Assembly (NCBI GenBank): GCA_003138365.1
Contig: PLFY01000084.1
Location: 33,274-93,485, forward strand
Source: Acidobacteriaceae bacterium
Lineage (GTDB): Bacteria; Acidobacteriota; Terriglobia; Terriglobales; Acidobacteriaceae
Direction of reading: 5' to 3'
DNA: 60,212 bases
Every line of letters starts with the position of its first letter. The stretch's first letter is position 1. Shown piece after piece: positions 438-46,340 of the stretch. The notes beneath the pieces are model-generated. The model had not been told where the DNA came from and did not search any database. It saw only the letters and a program-made list of their open reading frames with translations. Position numbers and translations under genes: made by a program.

Positions 438-481
438 ACGACCGGCTGACTCCGCTTACACCGCTAACTCCTCAAGCTCCG

Positions 482-1195
482 CTAGACCGCAAACAACCCC
501 GGCAAAACCTCCCCAGCCTTGCCTTCCACCACATGCGTAAAGGCCGAAGCATTCAACGGCGCCTCCGGTCCCACATACACCGTTCGCGCCCCACGCTGCC
601 GCGCCCAATGCACAAAATTGGCCGCCGGATAAACCGACCCTGAAGTTCCCACCACCACCATCAGCGTCGCCTTCTGGATCTCATCCTGAATCCGCTCCAT
701 CTCCAGCGGAATCTCGCCAAAGAAAACAATGTGCGGACGCAATCGTCCGCCGCAAGCGCACCGCCCCACCTCGTCCAGGCTCTTGTAAACCTTCCGATCC
801 TCAACCGGCGGCCGTCCGCACTCCCGCTCGCACCGCGCTTTGGTCAGTTCTCCATGCATGTGAACCAGCCGCACCGACCCCGCCCGCTCATGCAGGTCGT
901 CCACATTCTGCGTGCAAAGAAAAAAGCGCTCGCCCAGCCGCGCCTCCAACTCCGCCAGTGCAACGTGTGCCGGATTCGGCTCGGCCTTCGCGCCATCCGA
1001 CCGACGCCCCGAGTAGAACTCCCACACCAGCGCAGGATTCCGCTTCCACGCCTCCGGTGTGCAAACATCCTCGATCGAATGCCCCGCCCACAACCCGTCC
1101 GACGCGCGAAAGGTAGGCAGCCCGCTCTCCGCGCTGATCCCGGCGCCAGTTAGCACAAAGACCCGGTCATCCGGCGCAATAGAAATCTTGGTCAT
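482..1195 (-). CDS. cobB: Sir2-family NAD-dependent protein deacylase (CobB-type)
   Basis: Sirtuin of 237 residues that removes acyl groups from protein lysines using NAD. Visible motifs in order: GAGISAESGLPTFR (NAD binding), FYSGRR, TQNVDDLHERAG, HMHGE with the catalytic His, two Cys pairs (CEREC and CAC) for structural zinc, PHIVFFGE, and VVGTSGSVYPAANF. The Y-S-G-R within FYSGRR matches the YxxR motif that marks class III sirtuins (SIRT5, E. coli CobB), so desuccinylase/demalonylase activity is plausible. The reading frame extends 23 codons further upstream, but the ATG at 1195 fits family length. It is followed leftward by the converging gene at 21-437. Confidence 0.93.
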   Translation of the reverse strand: MTKISIAPDDRVFVLTGAGISAESGLPTFRASDGLWAGHSIEDVCTPEAWKRNPALVWEFYSGRRSDGAKAEPNPAHVALAELEARLGERFFLCTQNVDDLHERAGSVRLVHMHGELTKARCERECGRPPVEDRKVYKSLDEVGRCACGGRLRPHIVFFGEIPLEMERIQDEIQKATLMVVVGTSGSVYPAANFVHWARQRGARTVYVGPEAPLNASAFTHVVEGKAGEVLPGLFAV

Positions 1196-1290
1196 GTTCC
1201 AAGTCCCTTGAACTTCCCTTATGGGATTCGTCCAACCTCGGTGGGAGTGCCTTTTGCTGACCACTGATCACTGATCACTGACCGCTGCTT

Positions 1291-2259
1291 TCAGGGCTCC
1301 AGCAATACCTTTCCCGTCGTCTTGCGCGCCTCAAGATCGCTCTGCGCCTGCGCCGCATCGGCCAGCGAATAGATATGCTCAGTCCGCAGCTTCAGATCGC
1401 CCTTCGCCGCCCAACCCAGCACATCCCCGGCGCGAGCTTCCAGTTCCGCCCTTGTGGCGATGTAGTGCCACAACGTAGGCCGCGTCACGAACAGCGACCC
1501 CTTCCCGCTCAGTTGAATCAGGTCGAACGGCGGCACAGGTCCGCTCGACGCGCCAAACAGCGCCAGTAGCCCGCGCGGCCTCAGGCAGTTCAGGCTGCCT
1601 TGAAAGGTCGTCTTGCCCACCGAGTCGTACACCACGTCCACGCCTTTGCCGGCCGTGAGCCGCTTGACCTCCGCCGGAAAATCCTGCTCGGTATACAGAA
1701 TCACATCGGAAGCGCCCGCCTCGCGCGACAACTCCGCCTTGGCAGCCGTCGAAACAGTTGTAATCACCCGCGCGCCCAGCCGCACCGCCATCTGCGTCAG
1801 CAGCAGCCCCACGCCACCGGCTCCGGCATGAACCAGCGCCGTGTCCCCGGCCTTCAGCGGGAAGGTCGAGTGCGAAAGGTAATGCGCCGTCATTCCCTGC
1901 AGCATCGCGGCCGCAGCCTGTTCCGGGCTCAGCCCATCCGGCGTCTTCACCAGTTGCGTTGCGGGAACCAGCGCGTACTCGGCATAGCTGCCCAGCACGC
2001 TCACCGAGGCCACCGCATCCCCCGCAACAAATCCTGTTACGCCCGGACCCAGTTCCTCCACCGTGCCCGCAGCCTCGCTGCCTGGCGTCAGCGGAAGCGA
2101 GGCCTTGTATACGCCCTTGCGAAAATACACTTCAATGAAGTTGACCCCGGTAGCCTCAACGCGGATCAACACCTGCCCAGGTCCCGGCTCGGGAATGGGC
2201 AAATCGGCCAGCGTCAAGACCTCCGGCCCGCCTGTCTCGTGAATTTGGATAGCTTTCAT
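1291..2259 (-). CDS. Zinc-independent NADPH:quinone oxidoreductase (MDR superfamily)
   Basis: Medium-chain dehydrogenase/reductase of 322 residues starting MKAIQIHETGGPEVL, the usual start of quinone oxidoreductases. It has the GroES-like domain (residues about 1-120), then a Rossmann domain with VHAGAGGVGLLLTQMAVRLGA for NADPH, and lacks the Cys/His zinc ligands of alcohol dehydrogenases. The likely reaction is one-electron reduction of quinones or reduction of alpha,beta-unsaturated carbonyls; the substrate cannot be read from sequence. The ATG at 2259 is chosen over the upstream extension, which runs into repeat DNA. A CTGATCA-type heptamer array ends 4 nt after its stop codon. Confidence 0.9.
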   Translation of the reverse strand: MKAIQIHETGGPEVLTLADLPIPEPGPGQVLIRVEATGVNFIEVYFRKGVYKASLPLTPGSEAAGTVEELGPGVTGFVAGDAVASVSVLGSYAEYALVPATQLVKTPDGLSPEQAAAAMLQGMTAHYLSHSTFPLKAGDTALVHAGAGGVGLLLTQMAVRLGARVITTVSTAAKAELSREAGASDVILYTEQDFPAEVKRLTAGKGVDVVYDSVGKTTFQGSLNCLRPRGLLALFGASSGPVPPFDLIQLSGKGSLFVTRPTLWHYIATRAELEARAGDVLGWAAKGDLKLRTEHIYSLADAAQAQSDLEARKTTGKVLLEP

Positions 2260-41040: not shown

Positions 41041-42603
41041 TTGTCGCAATCCCCTTCGCCCATCCCCGCGCGAACCTCTCTGCGCACCGCCCTCCTGCTC
41101 GCTTCCCTCTTTGCCGCACTGACCTTCCTCGTCCATTTTCTGACCTCGCTTTGGGGCTCCCATCTCGGCTACGGCTTCTTCCGCGACGAGCTTTATTTCC
41201 TCGTCTGCGGCCATCACCTAGCCTGGGGTTACGTCGATCAGCCTCCGCTCGTAGCCCTGCAGGCCCGCCTTGCCGAAACCCTCTTTGGCCTCTCGCCCAC
41301 CGGCATTCGCATCTTCAGCTTTTTGGCTGGCAGCGTAACCGTCGGCCTCACCGGTCTGCTCGCGTGGCAGCTTGGCGGCCGCCGTGCGGCACAGGTGTTG
41401 GCGATGACCGCCATCCTCGCTGCTCCAGTCTTACTCGGCACCGCCAACTACCTCTCCATGAACGCCTTCGAGCCCTGCTTCTGGATGGGCGCGCTCCTGG
41501 TTGTCCTTCGCCTTGCCGATGGCGCCGCCTCGCCCCGCGCCTGGCTGCTCTTCGGCCTGCTGGCCGGCCTGGGCATTGAAAACAAACACTCCACAGTCTT
41601 CTTCCTGGTCGCGCTTGTGTTCGGCCTCATCCTCAGCCCTCAGCGCCGCATCCTTTGGACGCGTTGGTGTGTCGCTGGTGTCGCCCTGCTGATGCTGATC
41701 GCATTGCCCAATCTCATTTGGCAGTGGGTCCATCACTTCCCCACCTATGAGCTGCTCAACGGCGTCGCCCACTCCGACAAAAACATCAAGCTGCCGCCCC
41801 TGGCGTTCCTCTGGGAACAAGTCAGGATCCTCCTCTGGGAGACTGCCCCGCTCTGGATCGGCGGCCTTGCCTGGCTCGCATTTGCGCGCGCCGCCCGTGC
41901 CTGGCGATTCGTCGCATTCACCTACTTGATCTTCCTGGCCATGATGATGCTCATGCACGCCAAGGACTACTACGTCTCGCCCATCTATCCCGTGCTCTTC
42001 GCCGCCGGATCGGTAGCCTTCGGCCGGCTCACACGGCGCAGATGGCCTCTCATCGCCGCCTCCGTCAATTTCTTCCTCATTCTCTGTTTCGCCACCGGGC
42101 CCGTCGTACTCACCATTCTGCCGCCAGACAGGTACGACGCCTATACCGCCCCCTTTGCTCCCAACAACGCCCGATCGGAAAAGTTCACCAGCCCCCTGCC
42201 GCAGATCCTCTCCGACCGCTTCGGCTGGCCGCAGATGGTCGAGGGCTTCGCCACGCGTTACTATGCGCTTCCACCCGACGTGCGTGCCCGCACCGCCATC
42301 TTCTGCGGCAACTACGGCGAAGCCAGCGCCGTGAACATCCTCGGACCCAAGTACGGCCTGCCCACCGCCATCAGCGGCCATCAAAACTACTTTTACTGGG
42401 GATGGAACGGCTACACCGGCGAATCAGTCCTCACCCTGGGCAATGACCCCAAGGACTACGCGGACACCTACGCGGAAGTCATCGATCTGGGCCCCTTCGA
42501 CGCGCCCTGGATCATGGACCACGAGCATCATCACTACTTCTGGCTGCGCCACCGGAAGCGCACCTTCGCCGCCGACTGGCCCGAGCTCAAGTACTGGTAT
42601 TGA
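41041..42603 (+). CDS. Family 39 (ArnT/PMT-like) membrane glycosyltransferase
   Basis: 520 residues with about ten transmembrane helices. The first periplasmic loop holds FFRDELYFLVCGHHLAWGYVDQPPLVAL, with the DE pair typical of GT39/PMT_2 proteins that use polyprenyl-phosphate sugars. After the helices there is a C-terminal periplasmic domain (from about residue 365) ending FAADWPELKYWY. The TTG start at 41041 follows GAGGAG by 9 nt and gives a family-like N-terminus. Acceptor unknown (lipid, glycan or protein). Confidence 0.85.
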   Translation: MSQSPSPIPARTSLRTALLLASLFAALTFLVHFLTSLWGSHLGYGFFRDELYFLVCGHHLAWGYVDQPPLVALQARLAETLFGLSPTGIRIFSFLAGSVTVGLTGLLAWQLGGRRAAQVLAMTAILAAPVLLGTANYLSMNAFEPCFWMGALLVVLRLADGAASPRAWLLFGLLAGLGIENKHSTVFFLVALVFGLILSPQRRILWTRWCVAGVALLMLIALPNLIWQWVHHFPTYELLNGVAHSDKNIKLPPLAFLWEQVRILLWETAPLWIGGLAWLAFARAARAWRFVAFTYLIFLAMMMLMHAKDYYVSPIYPVLFAAGSVAFGRLTRRRWPLIAASVNFFLILCFATGPVVLTILPPDRYDAYTAPFAPNNARSEKFTSPLPQILSDRFGWPQMVEGFATRYYALPPDVRARTAIFCGNYGEASAVNILGPKYGLPTAISGHQNYFYWGWNGYTGESVLTLGNDPKDYADTYAEVIDLGPFDAPWIMDHEHHHYFWLRHRKRTFAADWPELKYWY

Positions 42604-42701
42604 TCCGCTGGGCGCCCCGCCCTCGCCGCAACTTTGTCTTTGCGGCTAGCGTAGAGTCTCACCTGTCTATAGCTTTTTATAGTTCTTCGTCAGCCCGGTT
42701 C

Positions 42702-43382
42702 TTAGACACCGATTTCGGCAAACATCGCCGCAACCCATTCGCGCCAACGCTGCAGCTCGATGCGATCGCCCAGTTTGAACTGGGTCGACGCTTCACTCAG
42801 TGTGACCCGCTTGCTATAGAGGTCGTCGGTCACCCGGTCGGAAAGATCCGGCAGAAACAGGCTCTTGCCCCCCTGCGTCATCACCGCCTGCCGAATCGTG
42901 CTTTTTTCGTAAAGCTCGAACTTCTTCGCCTCGCCAAAATACCCATTGCACACCACGTGAATCACTCCGCCACTCACGTGACTCATGTATTCGTTGAGCA
43001 GCTCCAGGCTGTCCCGCTGCCGGTTGATCACCCACAGCGTAATCAGCGGACGAGCCAACTCCCGCAGTGAGTTCAGCAGGATCGCCGCGTGCTTGACCAC
43101 CGCCACGTTGCTCTGCGCCGGCGTGTTCACCACCACCGCCTTGAACGGCGCCGCGTCGCAGACGTTCACCAGATGAATCCAGCCCTCCACGTCGTCCAGA
43201 TCGAGTACCTCGCCGTTGCTGGTCCGGCCATAGCAGCGAAATACGTCCGGATTGTTCACATCGGCGTCGATCAGCTTGACATACTTGTGGTTGGTCGAGA
43301 AATAGTCCATCAAGGCCATCGCCGTCAGCGATTTCCCGACGCCGCCCTTGCTCCCGTTCACTAGAATGATCGGCTGATTCAT
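42702..43382 (-). CDS. Orphan MinD/ParA-like P-loop ATPase
   Basis: 226 residues. Deviant Walker A NGSKGGVGKSLTAMALMDYF with the two Lys typical of MinD/ParA, then LIDADVNNPDVFRCYG. At the Walker B position it has AVVVNTPAQSN, with Asn where most relatives have Asp. C-terminal FLPDLSDRVTDDLYSKRVTLSEAS resembles MobD/mobilisation-type ATPases. No ParB, MinE or relaxase is near. It lies in a small accessory block between the GT39 gene and glgA. Possible plasmid or conjugative-element leftover; function unknown. Confidence 0.8.
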   Translation of the reverse strand: MNQPIILVNGSKGGVGKSLTAMALMDYFSTNHKYVKLIDADVNNPDVFRCYGRTSNGEVLDLDDVEGWIHLVNVCDAAPFKAVVVNTPAQSNVAVVKHAAILLNSLRELARPLITLWVINRQRDSLELLNEYMSHVSGGVIHVVCNGYFGEAKKFELYEKSTIRQAVMTQGGKSLFLPDLSDRVTDDLYSKRVTLSEASTQFKLGDRIELQRWREWVAAMFAEIGV

Positions 43383-43518
43383 ACCAGCATCCTAGCAAAC
43401 GATCCCATGGTTGGGAACTCATTTAAAAAGCTGAAGCCATCCCGGATTTCCATCTTTCCAATCCACCGTCGCCCGTTCCTGCCGTCAAATTTGGCCGGGG
43501 CCAAATAATTCTGATCGC

Positions 43519-43944
43519 TTAAATCGGCGCTCGCTCCATCGAGACAATGAACTGTATGCCCGGCACATGCGCAGTCGTCAATCGGTCGTCATTCGTGATG
43601 AAGAGATCGCAGCCGGCACTTGCAGCCGTCGCCAATTGAATGGCGTCGGGGGCCTTGATGGTTCGGTCCTGACGAACCCTGGCAAATATCTCACCAGCTG
43701 CCCGATCGAATGCAAGGACCCTCACCTGCGGCTCTCGCAGCAGTTCCCTGTATTTCGCTTCCAACGCGCGGTTACCCGTTCGAATAGGCTTCACGAGGAC
43801 CTCCCCAACCGTAAGCGTAGAGGTGAGAACCGTGTCCTTTCGAAGCGAGAGCCGTTCGAAGATGAAGTTGGCGCGATTCCCACGCGGCCCCAGGTCCTCT
43901 AGTTGGTAAATGAATAGATTTGAATCGAGAAAAACCCTGCTCAT
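43519..43944 (-). CDS. PIN-domain ribonuclease (VapC-like toxin)
   Basis: 141 residues starting MSRVFLDSNLFIYQLED. Conserved PIN acids: Asp7 (FLDSN), Glu48 (VGEVL), Asp100 (APDAIQLA) and Asp119/120 (ITNDDRL), forming a complete Mg2+ site, so it should be an active RNase. The start at 43944 is chosen because GAGGG lies 6 nt upstream and it forms an ATGA overlap with the stop codon of the upstream gene; an alternative ATG two codons earlier has its SD too close. It is the last gene of a three-gene operon. Confidence 0.88.
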   Translation of the reverse strand: MSRVFLDSNLFIYQLEDLGPRGNRANFIFERLSLRKDTVLTSTLTVGEVLVKPIRTGNRALEAKYRELLREPQVRVLAFDRAAGEIFARVRQDRTIKAPDAIQLATAASAGCDLFITNDDRLTTAHVPGIQFIVSMERAPI

Positions 43945-44543
43945 TCCCATCCCTCGCGCAACTCCCGGATGTAGTCGTCAGGGTCGATCCCAGCAGCCAT
44001 CTCCGCACCGATCCCGCGGGCCTGCAACAATCCTTCCAGGTGCCTTGGACGCTTCTCTGGCATGTTGTCGGGAGAAACGTATCCCGCGGGAAGAATAGGA
44101 TCGCTCCGCAACTCGCGAATCCTCTCGTCGGGATCAAGAGGCCAATTGCCGGCTCCTGCAAGTCCCTGTTCGTAGCGCTCCTTTGCCCACTCCAACACTG
44201 GCAGATACTTCTCCGGAACCTCATCGGCTTCGGGGAACATGTTCCCCGTCCTCCCGGGATCGACCTCATCACCTGGAAGGAGCAACCGCCGCGTGCTTCT
44301 CCCCGTGGCGAACAGCATCCGATGTTTGGCCGGGTTTGGCGCCTTGTTGGCCACGCAATGCTGGGAAGCATGAACGTTTACCCCAGAACGCATCTCGCCA
44401 GTAATATTCTCCCTTGCCGCCCGGTTCACAATTTCCTGAATTGTAAAGTCGTTTCGTCCTGTCTGCTCCTGATGAAGGAGCGCAGTTGCCAAGAAAACCT
44501 CGACGGCGCACGAAACATCAACCAAAACCGCTTGCGAAGTCAT
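43941..44543 (-). CDS. Antitoxin-like protein with N-terminal helical domain and duplicated C-terminal motif
   Basis: 200 residues, paired by ATGA overlap with the PIN gene. The N-terminal part (about 8-115) contains VEVFLATALLHQEQTGRNDFTIQEIVNRAARENITGEMRSGVNVHASQHCVANKAPNPAKHRMLFATG and looks like a winged-helix/DUF7669-type module. The C-terminal part has two copies of DPDxxIRELR (about 137-146 and 187-196), the second at the very end where antitoxins usually enter the PIN active site. Start ATG 44543 follows AGGGAG. Role as antitoxin and autoregulator is inferred from position. Confidence 0.75.
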   Translation of the reverse strand: MTSQAVLVDVSCAVEVFLATALLHQEQTGRNDFTIQEIVNRAARENITGEMRSGVNVHASQHCVANKAPNPAKHRMLFATGRSTRRLLLPGDEVDPGRTGNMFPEADEVPEKYLPVLEWAKERYEQGLAGAGNWPLDPDERIRELRSDPILPAGYVSPDNMPEKRPRHLEGLLQARGIGAEMAAGIDPDDYIRELREGWE

Positions 44544-44764
44544 AATTCTCCCTCCCATTGGTTATGCGCTTGCTGGTTGCACCTTGCATTCCCTATGTGG
44601 AAGCCAAGACAAAAATTGCAGCGATAGGCAGCCAGAGTGTCCACGGCAAAACCGATTCCCGAATCCAGGATGCGCCGAAGGCGCTTCTGCGCATGAGCGG
44701 CACGGCTGAATCTGACCTTTCTCCCGCAGGAGGAGTCCCATTTACAATAATCAACCTCGGTCAT
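44540..44764 (-). CDS. Small Cys-rich, zinc-finger-like protein heading the PIN operon
   Basis: 74 residues. MTEVDYCKWDSSCGRKVRFSRAAHAQKRLRR provides two Cys and a basic helix; the C-terminal YRCNFCLGFHIGNARC resembles the C-x2-C...H finger found in many small bacterial proteins (YRCPxCxxWHxG type). AAAGGAG lies 7 nt before ATG 44764, a much better site than any upstream start. Its stop overlaps the antitoxin-like start (ATGA, 44540-44543), so all three genes are coupled. A zinc-binding nucleic-acid or ribosome contact is plausible; no function is established. Confidence 0.75.
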   Translation of the reverse strand: MTEVDYCKWDSSCGRKVRFSRAAHAQKRLRRILDSGIGFAVDTLAAYRCNFCLGFHIGNARCNQQAHNQWEGEL

Positions 44765-44870
44765 GCAAATTCTCCTTTCGGGGCGAATGAACGCCCACAC
44801 AAGGAATATACTTGACTCCTTTTTAAAATGCAATGTTTCAAAAGTATTCTGATTTATGTTTTTAAAATAC
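44765..44870 (-). promoter_or_regulatory. AT-rich promoter and possible operator of the three-gene PIN operon
   Basis: Read leftward there is TTGCAT, 17 nt, then TATATT, a fair sigma-70 pair ending about 45 nt before the ATG at 44764. Just upstream, AGTATT (44843-44848) and AATACT (44866-44871) form an inverted repeat 17 nt apart that could be an operator. This is the most AT-rich stretch in the area. Confidence 0.5.
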
Positions 44871-46340
44871 TCAACCTCGCCGCCTGACCGCTTCCTCATA
44901 AACCCCGGCGTACTCCCGCGCCGGCCCCGCCCATCCGTAATCCCTCGCCATACCATTCAGCATCAGCTTCTTCCATCCCTTCTTATCCTTGAACGCCGCC
45001 AGCGCACGGTCGATCGCCTCCAGCAACCCCACGGCCTTCAGACCCTCAAACTTGAACCCCGTCCCCGTGCCCAGCTCCGGATTCCACTCCTCGATCGTGT
45101 CGTCCAGTCCGCCCGTCGCCCGCACCACCGGCGCCGTCCCGTACTTGAGCGAGTAAATCTGGTTCAGCCCGCAAGGCTCATACCGCGAAGGCATCAGAAA
45201 CATATCCGCCCCAGCCTCGACCTTATGCGCCAGCGCGTCGTCGTAGCGGATCTGCACCGCGACCTGCCCCGGGTGCCGGAATGCCCAATCGCGGAAGAAT
45301 CTCTCGTAGATCGGCTCGCCCGTCCCCAGGGCCACCACAACCAGGTCCCGCTCCACCAACTTATCCGCAATCTCCGCCACAAAACCGAAGCCCTTCATCG
45401 CCGCAAACCGCGAAACAATCCCGATCACCGCCGTCTTATCCGCCACCTTCTCCAACCCAAACGCATCAAGCAGGTCAGCGCGGCACTGCTGCTTGCCCGC
45501 CAAATCTTCCGGGCTGAAATGCGCCGCCAGGTTGCCGTCCGTCGCCGGGTCCCACTGCGTATAGTCCACGCCGTTCAAAATTCCGCGCAGGTCCGCCGCC
45601 CGCCCTCGCAGCACGCCGTCCAGTTTCTCTCCAAACTCCGCCGTCTGAATCTCCTCCGCATATTTCCGGCTCACCGTCGTCAGCATGTCGGCGAAGACCA
45701 GTCCGCCCTTCAGAAAATTGAAGTTGTCGAACTGCTCCAACTTATCCATCGTGAAAATCTCCCACGGAAACAGCAGTCGCTCCGTCGTGTCAGGCGGAAA
45801 CCACCCCTGATAGCCCGCGTTATGAATGGTCAGCACCACCCCGGCCCGCTTCAGCATTGGATCCAGGGAATAAACCGTCCGCAGATAAACCGGAATCAGC
45901 GCCGCCTGCCAGTCGTGGACATGAAAAACATCCGGCACGCCCAGCAGCTTGGTCGCCTCCAGCACAGCCCGGCAAAATAACCCAAACCGCTCCCAATTAT
46001 TGGGATAATCGCCGGCCTTGGTCCCGTAGAGTCCCGGCCGGTCAAAAAGCTCCGGGCAATCCACAAAGTAGTACTGAACGCCGCCCCGAGTGCCCCCGTC
46101 CACAATCCCCACAAAACGGTTGTACGACTCAAAGGGAATGGTGATCGACCGCACCGCATACGTCCATTCGCCCTTGATCTGCGTCCTGAGGTGCGCCTTC
46201 ACTCCCGCATATAGCGGCAGGTAGACCGTAACCTCGTGCCCCAGCTTCTTGAGCTCAGGCGGCAGCGCACCCACCACATCGGCCAACCCGCCGGTCTTTG
46301 CAAACGGTACGCACTCCGAAGCAGCAAAAACAATATGCAT
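44871..46340 (-). CDS. glgA: Glycogen (starch) synthase
   Basis: 489-residue GT5 enzyme that extends alpha-1,4-glucan using ADP-glucose. MHIVFAASECVPFAKTGGLADVVGALP includes the KTGGL substrate loop; HDWQAALIPVYLRT, TIHNAGYQGWF, NGVDYTQWDPATD and MPSRYEPCGLNQIYSLKYGTAPVVRATGGLDD (catalytic Glu) follow as in GlgA. Start ATG 46340 has GGGAG 9 nt upstream. It is divergent from rsmA (141 nt apart) and lies upstream of the PIN operon on the same strand. Confidence 0.95.
   Translation of the reverse strand: MHIVFAASECVPFAKTGGLADVVGALPPELKKLGHEVTVYLPLYAGVKAHLRTQIKGEWTYAVRSITIPFESYNRFVGIVDGGTRGGVQYYFVDCPELFDRPGLYGTKAGDYPNNWERFGLFCRAVLEATKLLGVPDVFHVHDWQAALIPVYLRTVYSLDPMLKRAGVVLTIHNAGYQGWFPPDTTERLLFPWEIFTMDKLEQFDNFNFLKGGLVFADMLTTVSRKYAEEIQTAEFGEKLDGVLRGRAADLRGILNGVDYTQWDPATDGNLAAHFSPEDLAGKQQCRADLLDAFGLEKVADKTAVIGIVSRFAAMKGFGFVAEIADKLVERDLVVVALGTGEPIYERFFRDWAFRHPGQVAVQIRYDDALAHKVEAGADMFLMPSRYEPCGLNQIYSLKYGTAPVVRATGGLDDTIEEWNPELGTGTGFKFEGLKAVGLLEAIDRALAAFKDKKGWKKLMLNGMARDYGWAGPAREYAGVYEEAVRRRG

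Follow-up and report, generated by a model that had tools for sequence, protein, structure and literature searches.

A finger-like third gene in front of a PIN toxin–antitoxin-type pair in Acidobacteriaceae

A putative three-gene operon on the minus strand

The window analysed here, a 60,212-nucleotide stretch of a contig from a soil-type acidobacterium (Acidobacteriaceae bacterium, PLFY01000084.1), encodes three small head-to-tail genes on its minus strand, running from position 44764 to 43519: a Cys-rich finger-like protein (hereafter the finger), a predicted antitoxin and a predicted PIN-domain toxin. The leftward arrangement and the two ATGA overlaps recorded in a preliminary description of this DNA are exact to the coordinate. 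The elements of the operon, taken from open reading frames (ORFs) or read from the sequence, are as follows.

44540..44764, minus strand: finger gene, first in the operon, encoding a Cys-rich protein of 74 amino acids (aa) (ORF)
43941..44543, minus strand: antitoxin gene, second, 200 aa, with a winged-helix N-domain, a linker and a toxin-matched C-terminal tail, the domains as predicted (ORF)
43519..43944, minus strand: PIN toxin gene, third, 141 aa (ORF; Pfam PF01850)
44540..44543, minus strand: ATGA overlap of the finger and antitoxin genes (read from the sequence)
43941..43944, minus strand: ATGA overlap of the antitoxin and PIN genes (read from the sequence)

An ATG located 6 nt further upstream would extend the PIN protein to 143 aa. 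By eye, Shine-Dalgarno-like ribosome binding sites precede the finger and antitoxin starts (AAGGAG and GGGAGGGAG, respectively), and the PIN gene has the weaker GAGGG.

The PIN protein and its winged-helix partner

The PIN protein matches PF01850 with an E-value of 1.8e-15 (58 bits against a cut-off of 23.6) and retains the conserved acidic residues of the PIN motif (D7, E48, D100 and D119/D120), which we take to be catalytic. Its upstream partner combines a DNA-binding-like domain with a toxin-specific C-terminus, and antitoxin-type matches show a patchy, accessory distribution, being found in 28 of 150 genomes of the family and, in some cases as the tail only, in 26 of 80 genomes of the genus. 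These are features of the VapBC-like type II toxin–antitoxin (TA) systems, with which the operon also shares the order of the genes, the PIN gene being downstream of the antitoxin gene, and their overlap. It differs from VapBC in the predicted winged helix of the antitoxin, which belongs to no Pfam family, in the extra finger gene in front, and in the two tail-motif copies often present in antitoxins of the window's tail type. Judged by sequence, the two proteins look like a VapC-type toxin–antitoxin pair, as first suggested, with the PIN protein predicted to be toxic and the 200-aa protein to neutralize it. The following segments were delimited in the antitoxin.

44274..44516, minus strand: predicted winged-helix domain, residues 10-90 (structure prediction)
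43944..44051, minus strand: C-terminal tail, residues 165-200, the putative PIN-binding segment (from its correlation with PIN and its recurrence on other proteins)
44106..44135, minus strand: inner copy of the tail motif, DPDERIRELR, residues 137-146
43956-43985, minus strand: tail motif, DPDDYIRELR, residues 187-196

The tail tracks the PIN sequence closely (Mantel r=0.87, p=0.0002, partial 0.86; n=16 loci), far above the N-domain in the same loci (r=0.35). The inner motif copy occurs in 47 of 80 antitoxins of the window's tail type, in none of the 38 of two other types and in one of two unassigned proteins; shuffled linkers gave no copy. The two motifs, 50 residues apart, might bind the two subunits of a dimeric PIN protein. 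The tail also recurs on other proteins: it was found without the winged helix in five places among 396 phylum genomes, four of them adjoining a PIN gene, and among four tail-only proteins of the genus, the three that were read all lie beside a PIN gene. Such tail-only proteins beside PIN genes are short.

The antitoxin, at 200 aa, is larger than the usual VapB. Homologue searches returned 689 matches, and the nearest named relatives in GTDB contigs are mostly from Acidobacteriaceae. Neither the window copy nor its family matched any Pfam family. The label 'DUF7669-like' given to it in the preliminary description found no support, since none of 60 family members matched a DUF7669-named Pfam family at E<=1, although the presence of that model in the Pfam copy used is unverified. 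A winged-helix protein adjoining a PIN gene is also found at Rv2018/Rv2019, described as a COG2442/DUF433 fusion with a winged helix–turn–helix (PMC2701414, in excerpt), but no COG2442/DUF433 domain was matched in the antitoxin family of the window.

Two loci show unusual joints of antitoxin segments. At L122, an ORF at 445-1635 (plus strand) that resembles agmatine deiminase by eye continues directly into an antitoxin tail and is itself succeeded by a PIN gene; this is either a fusion or an assembly effect. At L023, an antitoxin-like N-domain is joined to a C-terminus that looks AbrB-like by eye, in front of a different PIN gene.

The finger is a basic, probably zinc-binding protein with phage relatives

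A first protein search returned four finger homologues, and a profile of 11 rows returned 37. In the family alignment of 41 rows, the putative zinc site C13-C49-C52-H56 is kept in 40, 40, 39 and 41 rows, respectively, and K16, S20, H24 and G54 are invariant; the window copy deviates at residue 59, where it has N and 39 of the 41 rows have H. The family is strongly basic (pI 8.5–11.4, n=41). The structure model (mean pLDDT 70.5, with block means of 76–91 across residues 11–60) contains a helix (22–35) and a hairpin (44–48/55–59) with the CxxC between the strands. The model fits a zinc knuckle, and the protein probably binds zinc; fold comparison with solved structures gave no informative match. 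Ratios of dN to dS were below 1 in all pairs with finite dS (0.12–0.31; six of eight pairs, mostly saturated), including the only unsaturated close pair, L046–L051 (0.26 at dS 0.24). The finger is a real gene under purifying selection.

Two homologues, P0127 and P0128, carry the JGI name 'ribosomal protein L32'. The name is unsupported by family models: none of 11 members matched a ribosomal protein family in Pfam (E<=10), nor did any of 41 in NCBIfam (E<=1). The basic, zinc-knuckle-like character of the finger, and that name, would suit a targeting or specificity factor that binds RNA or the ribosome and guides the PIN nuclease to its target. Eukaryotic RNA decay enzymes in which PIN-type domains are joined to zinc fingers offer a precedent, at least as outlined in the sources consulted in part. 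This reading seems improbable to us: besides the lack of a ribosomal family match, the PIN proteins of relatives lacking the finger look similar by eye, and, to our knowledge, the gene for a targeting factor does not usually precede the antitoxin gene.

The phage family PHROG 14788 (phrog_14788), of unknown function, is matched by 39 of the 41 finger members at E<=0.01, the window member having an E-value of 9.9e-6. Relatives of the prophage-type finger occur in phages of Serratia, Pectobacterium, Pseudomonas and Bordetella. In two phage stretches (L131 and L132), the neighbours of the finger relative are mostly of unknown function and no antitoxin–PIN pair adjoins; in this, the relatives examined from phages and prophage-type loci differ from the finger of the operon. 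The phage kinship allows a more adventurous proposal, which we regard as a long shot: the finger would be a captured phage protein acting as a decoy sensor within the antitoxin–PIN repressor complex, and the homologue of an infecting phage would compete for the antitoxin, disturb the complex and free the PIN nuclease as a toxin set off by infection. A phage-sensing finger, if real, would also be informative about what activates chromosomal PIN toxins. More generally, a defence role for the operon is possible because PIN nucleases also serve phage defence outside TA systems, as do DS-3 and DS-5, which are described as acting without being TA toxins (PMC13092281, in excerpt).

Finger genes accompany the antitoxin–PIN pair in one clade

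From 300 family genomes, 399 class genomes and 20 loci from GTDB contigs, we assembled 16 different antitoxin–PIN loci of the clade to which the window belongs. Upstream DNA is readable in 15 of them, L047 being cut by a contig end. The finger lies directly upstream of the antitoxin gene in nine loci (L001, which is the window, L002, L003, L005, L042, L045, L046, L048 and L051) and is lacking in six (L004, L044, L049, L050, L052 and L053). Seen from the finger, the antitoxin and PIN genes adjoin close homologues in all nine readable loci. The eight other copies share 39–58% identity with the window copy, and pairwise identity among the nine is 37–58%, except for one pair at 87%; conservation of the finger–antitoxin–PIN order goes beyond chance. 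The 4-nt finger/antitoxin overlap is found in five of the nine loci as annotated, and L045 may add a sixth, through GTGA. The proposal of a third component is borne out to the extent that the finger gene recurs as an additional member of the PIN–antitoxin locus.

The preliminary description had suggested checking whether the finger co-occurs with the other two genes, and the outcome depends on how remote a relative is counted. Finger matches were found in 11 of 300 family genomes, four of them strong (E 4.5e-32 or better) and seven weak (E 1.3e-7 to 5.7e-4). Antitoxin and PIN genes lie directly downstream of all four strong matches, and none of the seven weak ones has an antitoxin or a window-type PIN gene within <=1.5 kb on either side, other PIN types not having been systematically sought around them. 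Likewise, among 11 matches in 399 class genomes, three are strong and accompanied by the pair, and eight are weak and unaccompanied. Co-occurrence thus holds for close homologues and fails if remote relatives are included (7 of 11 family and 8 of 11 class genome matches). By eye, the weak relatives at L035 and L037 lie in prophage-like surroundings, and the finger-like gene at L106 is directly downstream of a TniQ-like transposition gene; others lie elsewhere. Beside another weak finger locus, L036 (800-1252, plus strand), a PIN_3 gene (E 5.6e-16) is convergent on the opposite strand, which is either chance or a second finger–PIN association.

In the whole genus set of 80 genomes, clade-type antitoxin–PIN pairs were found in 13, seven with the finger, five without it and one cut, with the PIN gene present in all 13. 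No finger was found beside 14 more distant antitoxin loci of the genus (L144–L153 and L157–L160), all of which have a PIN gene, nor upstream of the antitoxin in the 12 non-clade rows of the tree described below. The finger is therefore a clade-specific accessory of the antitoxin–PIN operon. Among the matches listed (120 of 689 for the antitoxin), there are hints that 7 of the 37 finger homologues may pair with antitoxin homologues.

In a tree of 28 antitoxin plus PIN rows, the 16 clade loci cluster (100/99), and every finger falls inside this cluster. The presence of the finger requires at least five changes on the tree, against a mean of 7.7 for shuffled labels (14 of 500 shuffles were as low). 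Because of these counts, one gain followed by several losses and several gains both fit its distribution. No DNA remnant of a finger was seen in the six loci that lack it.

The repeated changes on the tree, the match of nearly the whole family to phrog_14788 and the presence of weaker relatives in phages, in prophage-like surroundings and beside the TniQ-like gene would be expected of a passenger, a small phage-derived gene that became established between the promoter and the antitoxin gene of a single lineage and is kept for an unrelated function. We consider this rather unlikely, given that the exact position is kept in all nine readable close loci despite the divergence of the finger itself, with a translational overlap in five of them and with purifying selection.

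A different proposal, and an unlikely one though it deserves somewhat more weight, is that the finger assists neutralization as a second antitoxin or chaperone that binds the antitoxin or the PIN protein, in the manner of PasC or SpoIISC (PMC4803016, in excerpt). In favour of this, the finger is the first of the three proteins to be made, with its translation coupled to that of the antitoxin; its sequence distances correlate best with those of PIN (0.50–0.52, against 0.36 for the antitoxin N-domain and 0.40 for the tail; n=9), a co-evolution signal that does not decide its role. The charge of the window finger (+3.7) is opposite to that of its antitoxin (-9.0), but in the eight other loci the antitoxin has only -4.8 to +2.3. 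Against this proposal, the finger co-occurs with three different tail/PIN subtypes, and 6 of the 15 readable clade loci keep antitoxin and PIN without it. Because of these finger-less loci and the toxin-matched tail of the antitoxin, an obligate role as the 'second neutralising protein' of the preliminary description is unlikely.

A proposed accessory regulator within a tripartite operon

Tripartite type II TA loci in which a regulator gene comes first have been described (PMC4803016 and PMC8630535, both in excerpt), among them paaR-paaA-parE and omega-epsilon-zeta, whose main promoter precedes the extra gene (PMC4803016). Going by these excerpts, the operon of the window shares with the two named systems the order extra gene, antitoxin, toxin. 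It differs from them in that the extra gene is finger-like and not a CI-like or ribbon–helix–helix (RHH) regulator, the toxin is a PIN protein, the antitoxin keeps a predicted DNA-binding domain and the extra gene is missing from related loci. In this last respect it can be likened, by description, to pasABC, with a third small protein that is present in pTF-FC2 and absent from the related pTC-F14 locus; PasC is described as not regulatory (PMC4803016, in excerpt).

With moderate confidence, we read the locus as a chromosomal type II TA operon in which the finger is an accessory, co-repressor-like regulator, comparable to paaR or omega, and is dispensable for neutralization. This role is our first choice because regulator-first tripartite loci are known and loss of the finger is tolerated. 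The PIN protein would be a metal-dependent RNase toxin, kept inactive by binding of the antitoxin tail; the winged helix would bind operator DNA, and antitoxin and PIN together would repress the operon. The finger, translated first and coupled to the antitoxin, would add a nucleic-acid- or partner-binding function to the antitoxin–PIN complex. Being small, basic and probably zinc-binding, it most likely binds nucleic acid and may help the complex to repress or to sense.

The preliminary description had called the operon a candidate undescribed system. This stands for the variant and not for the type, as PIN TA pairs and tripartite TA loci are known; what is new is the finger as third gene, together with a winged-helix antitoxin that has no Pfam family and shares its toxin-matched tail with other proteins. 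No finger–antitoxin–PIN operon was found among the open-licence PMC matches listed. With this finding, PIN TA operons gain a finger-like third component that seems to be related to phage proteins, and the loci with and without a finger within one genus offer a natural comparison for the role of a third TA gene.

Upstream region and chromosomal site

The following features surround the operon.

44765..44870, minus strand: AT-rich stretch separating the glgA stop codon from the finger gene (sequence)
44781-44796, minus strand: hairpin GGGCG-TTCATT-CGCCC, a few bases before the finger ribosome binding site (sequence)
stop at 44871: glgA (starch/glycogen synthase; PF08323), upstream of the operon
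42702-43382, minus strand: ParA/MinD-like ATPase with KGGVGK, downstream of the PIN gene
41041-42603: PMT-type glycosyltransferase gene (PF13231), downstream

The AT-rich promoter with an AGTATT/AATACT repeat proposed earlier is borne out in base composition and in the presence of the repeat, whose arms lie at 44866-44871 and 44843-44848, the first overlapping the glgA stop codon by its final base. By itself, this repeat is unremarkable, as one or more perfect 6-bp inverted repeats turn up in 62% of base-shuffled versions of the stretch, and no sigma-70-like promoter passed a scan of 43300-45000. The stretch holds five such pairs in total (shuffle mean 1.28; at least five in 4% of shuffles), the four remaining ones being TTTTAAAA-like or ATACTT/AAGTAT. 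The leader RNA (44740-44870) folds slightly better than shuffled sequences (z = -2.0; 8 of 200 shuffles were equally stable).

A glgA match was found in 28 of 40 genus genomes. No tblastn match to the ParA/MinD-like ATPase of the window was found in 25 other loci tested. Among 29 loci downstream of glgA, an antitoxin–PIN pair is present in three and absent from 26, the latter including L089, with only two downstream bases, and some others that are partial. Of the three, the window and L077, which lies on the L048 contig, have the finger, and L078, on the L050 contig, lacks it. Two close relatives, L092 and L093, have other genes (of 737 and 286 aa) between glgA and the glycosyltransferase gene. 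The interval between these two genes, 41041-44871 in the window, is a variable islet.
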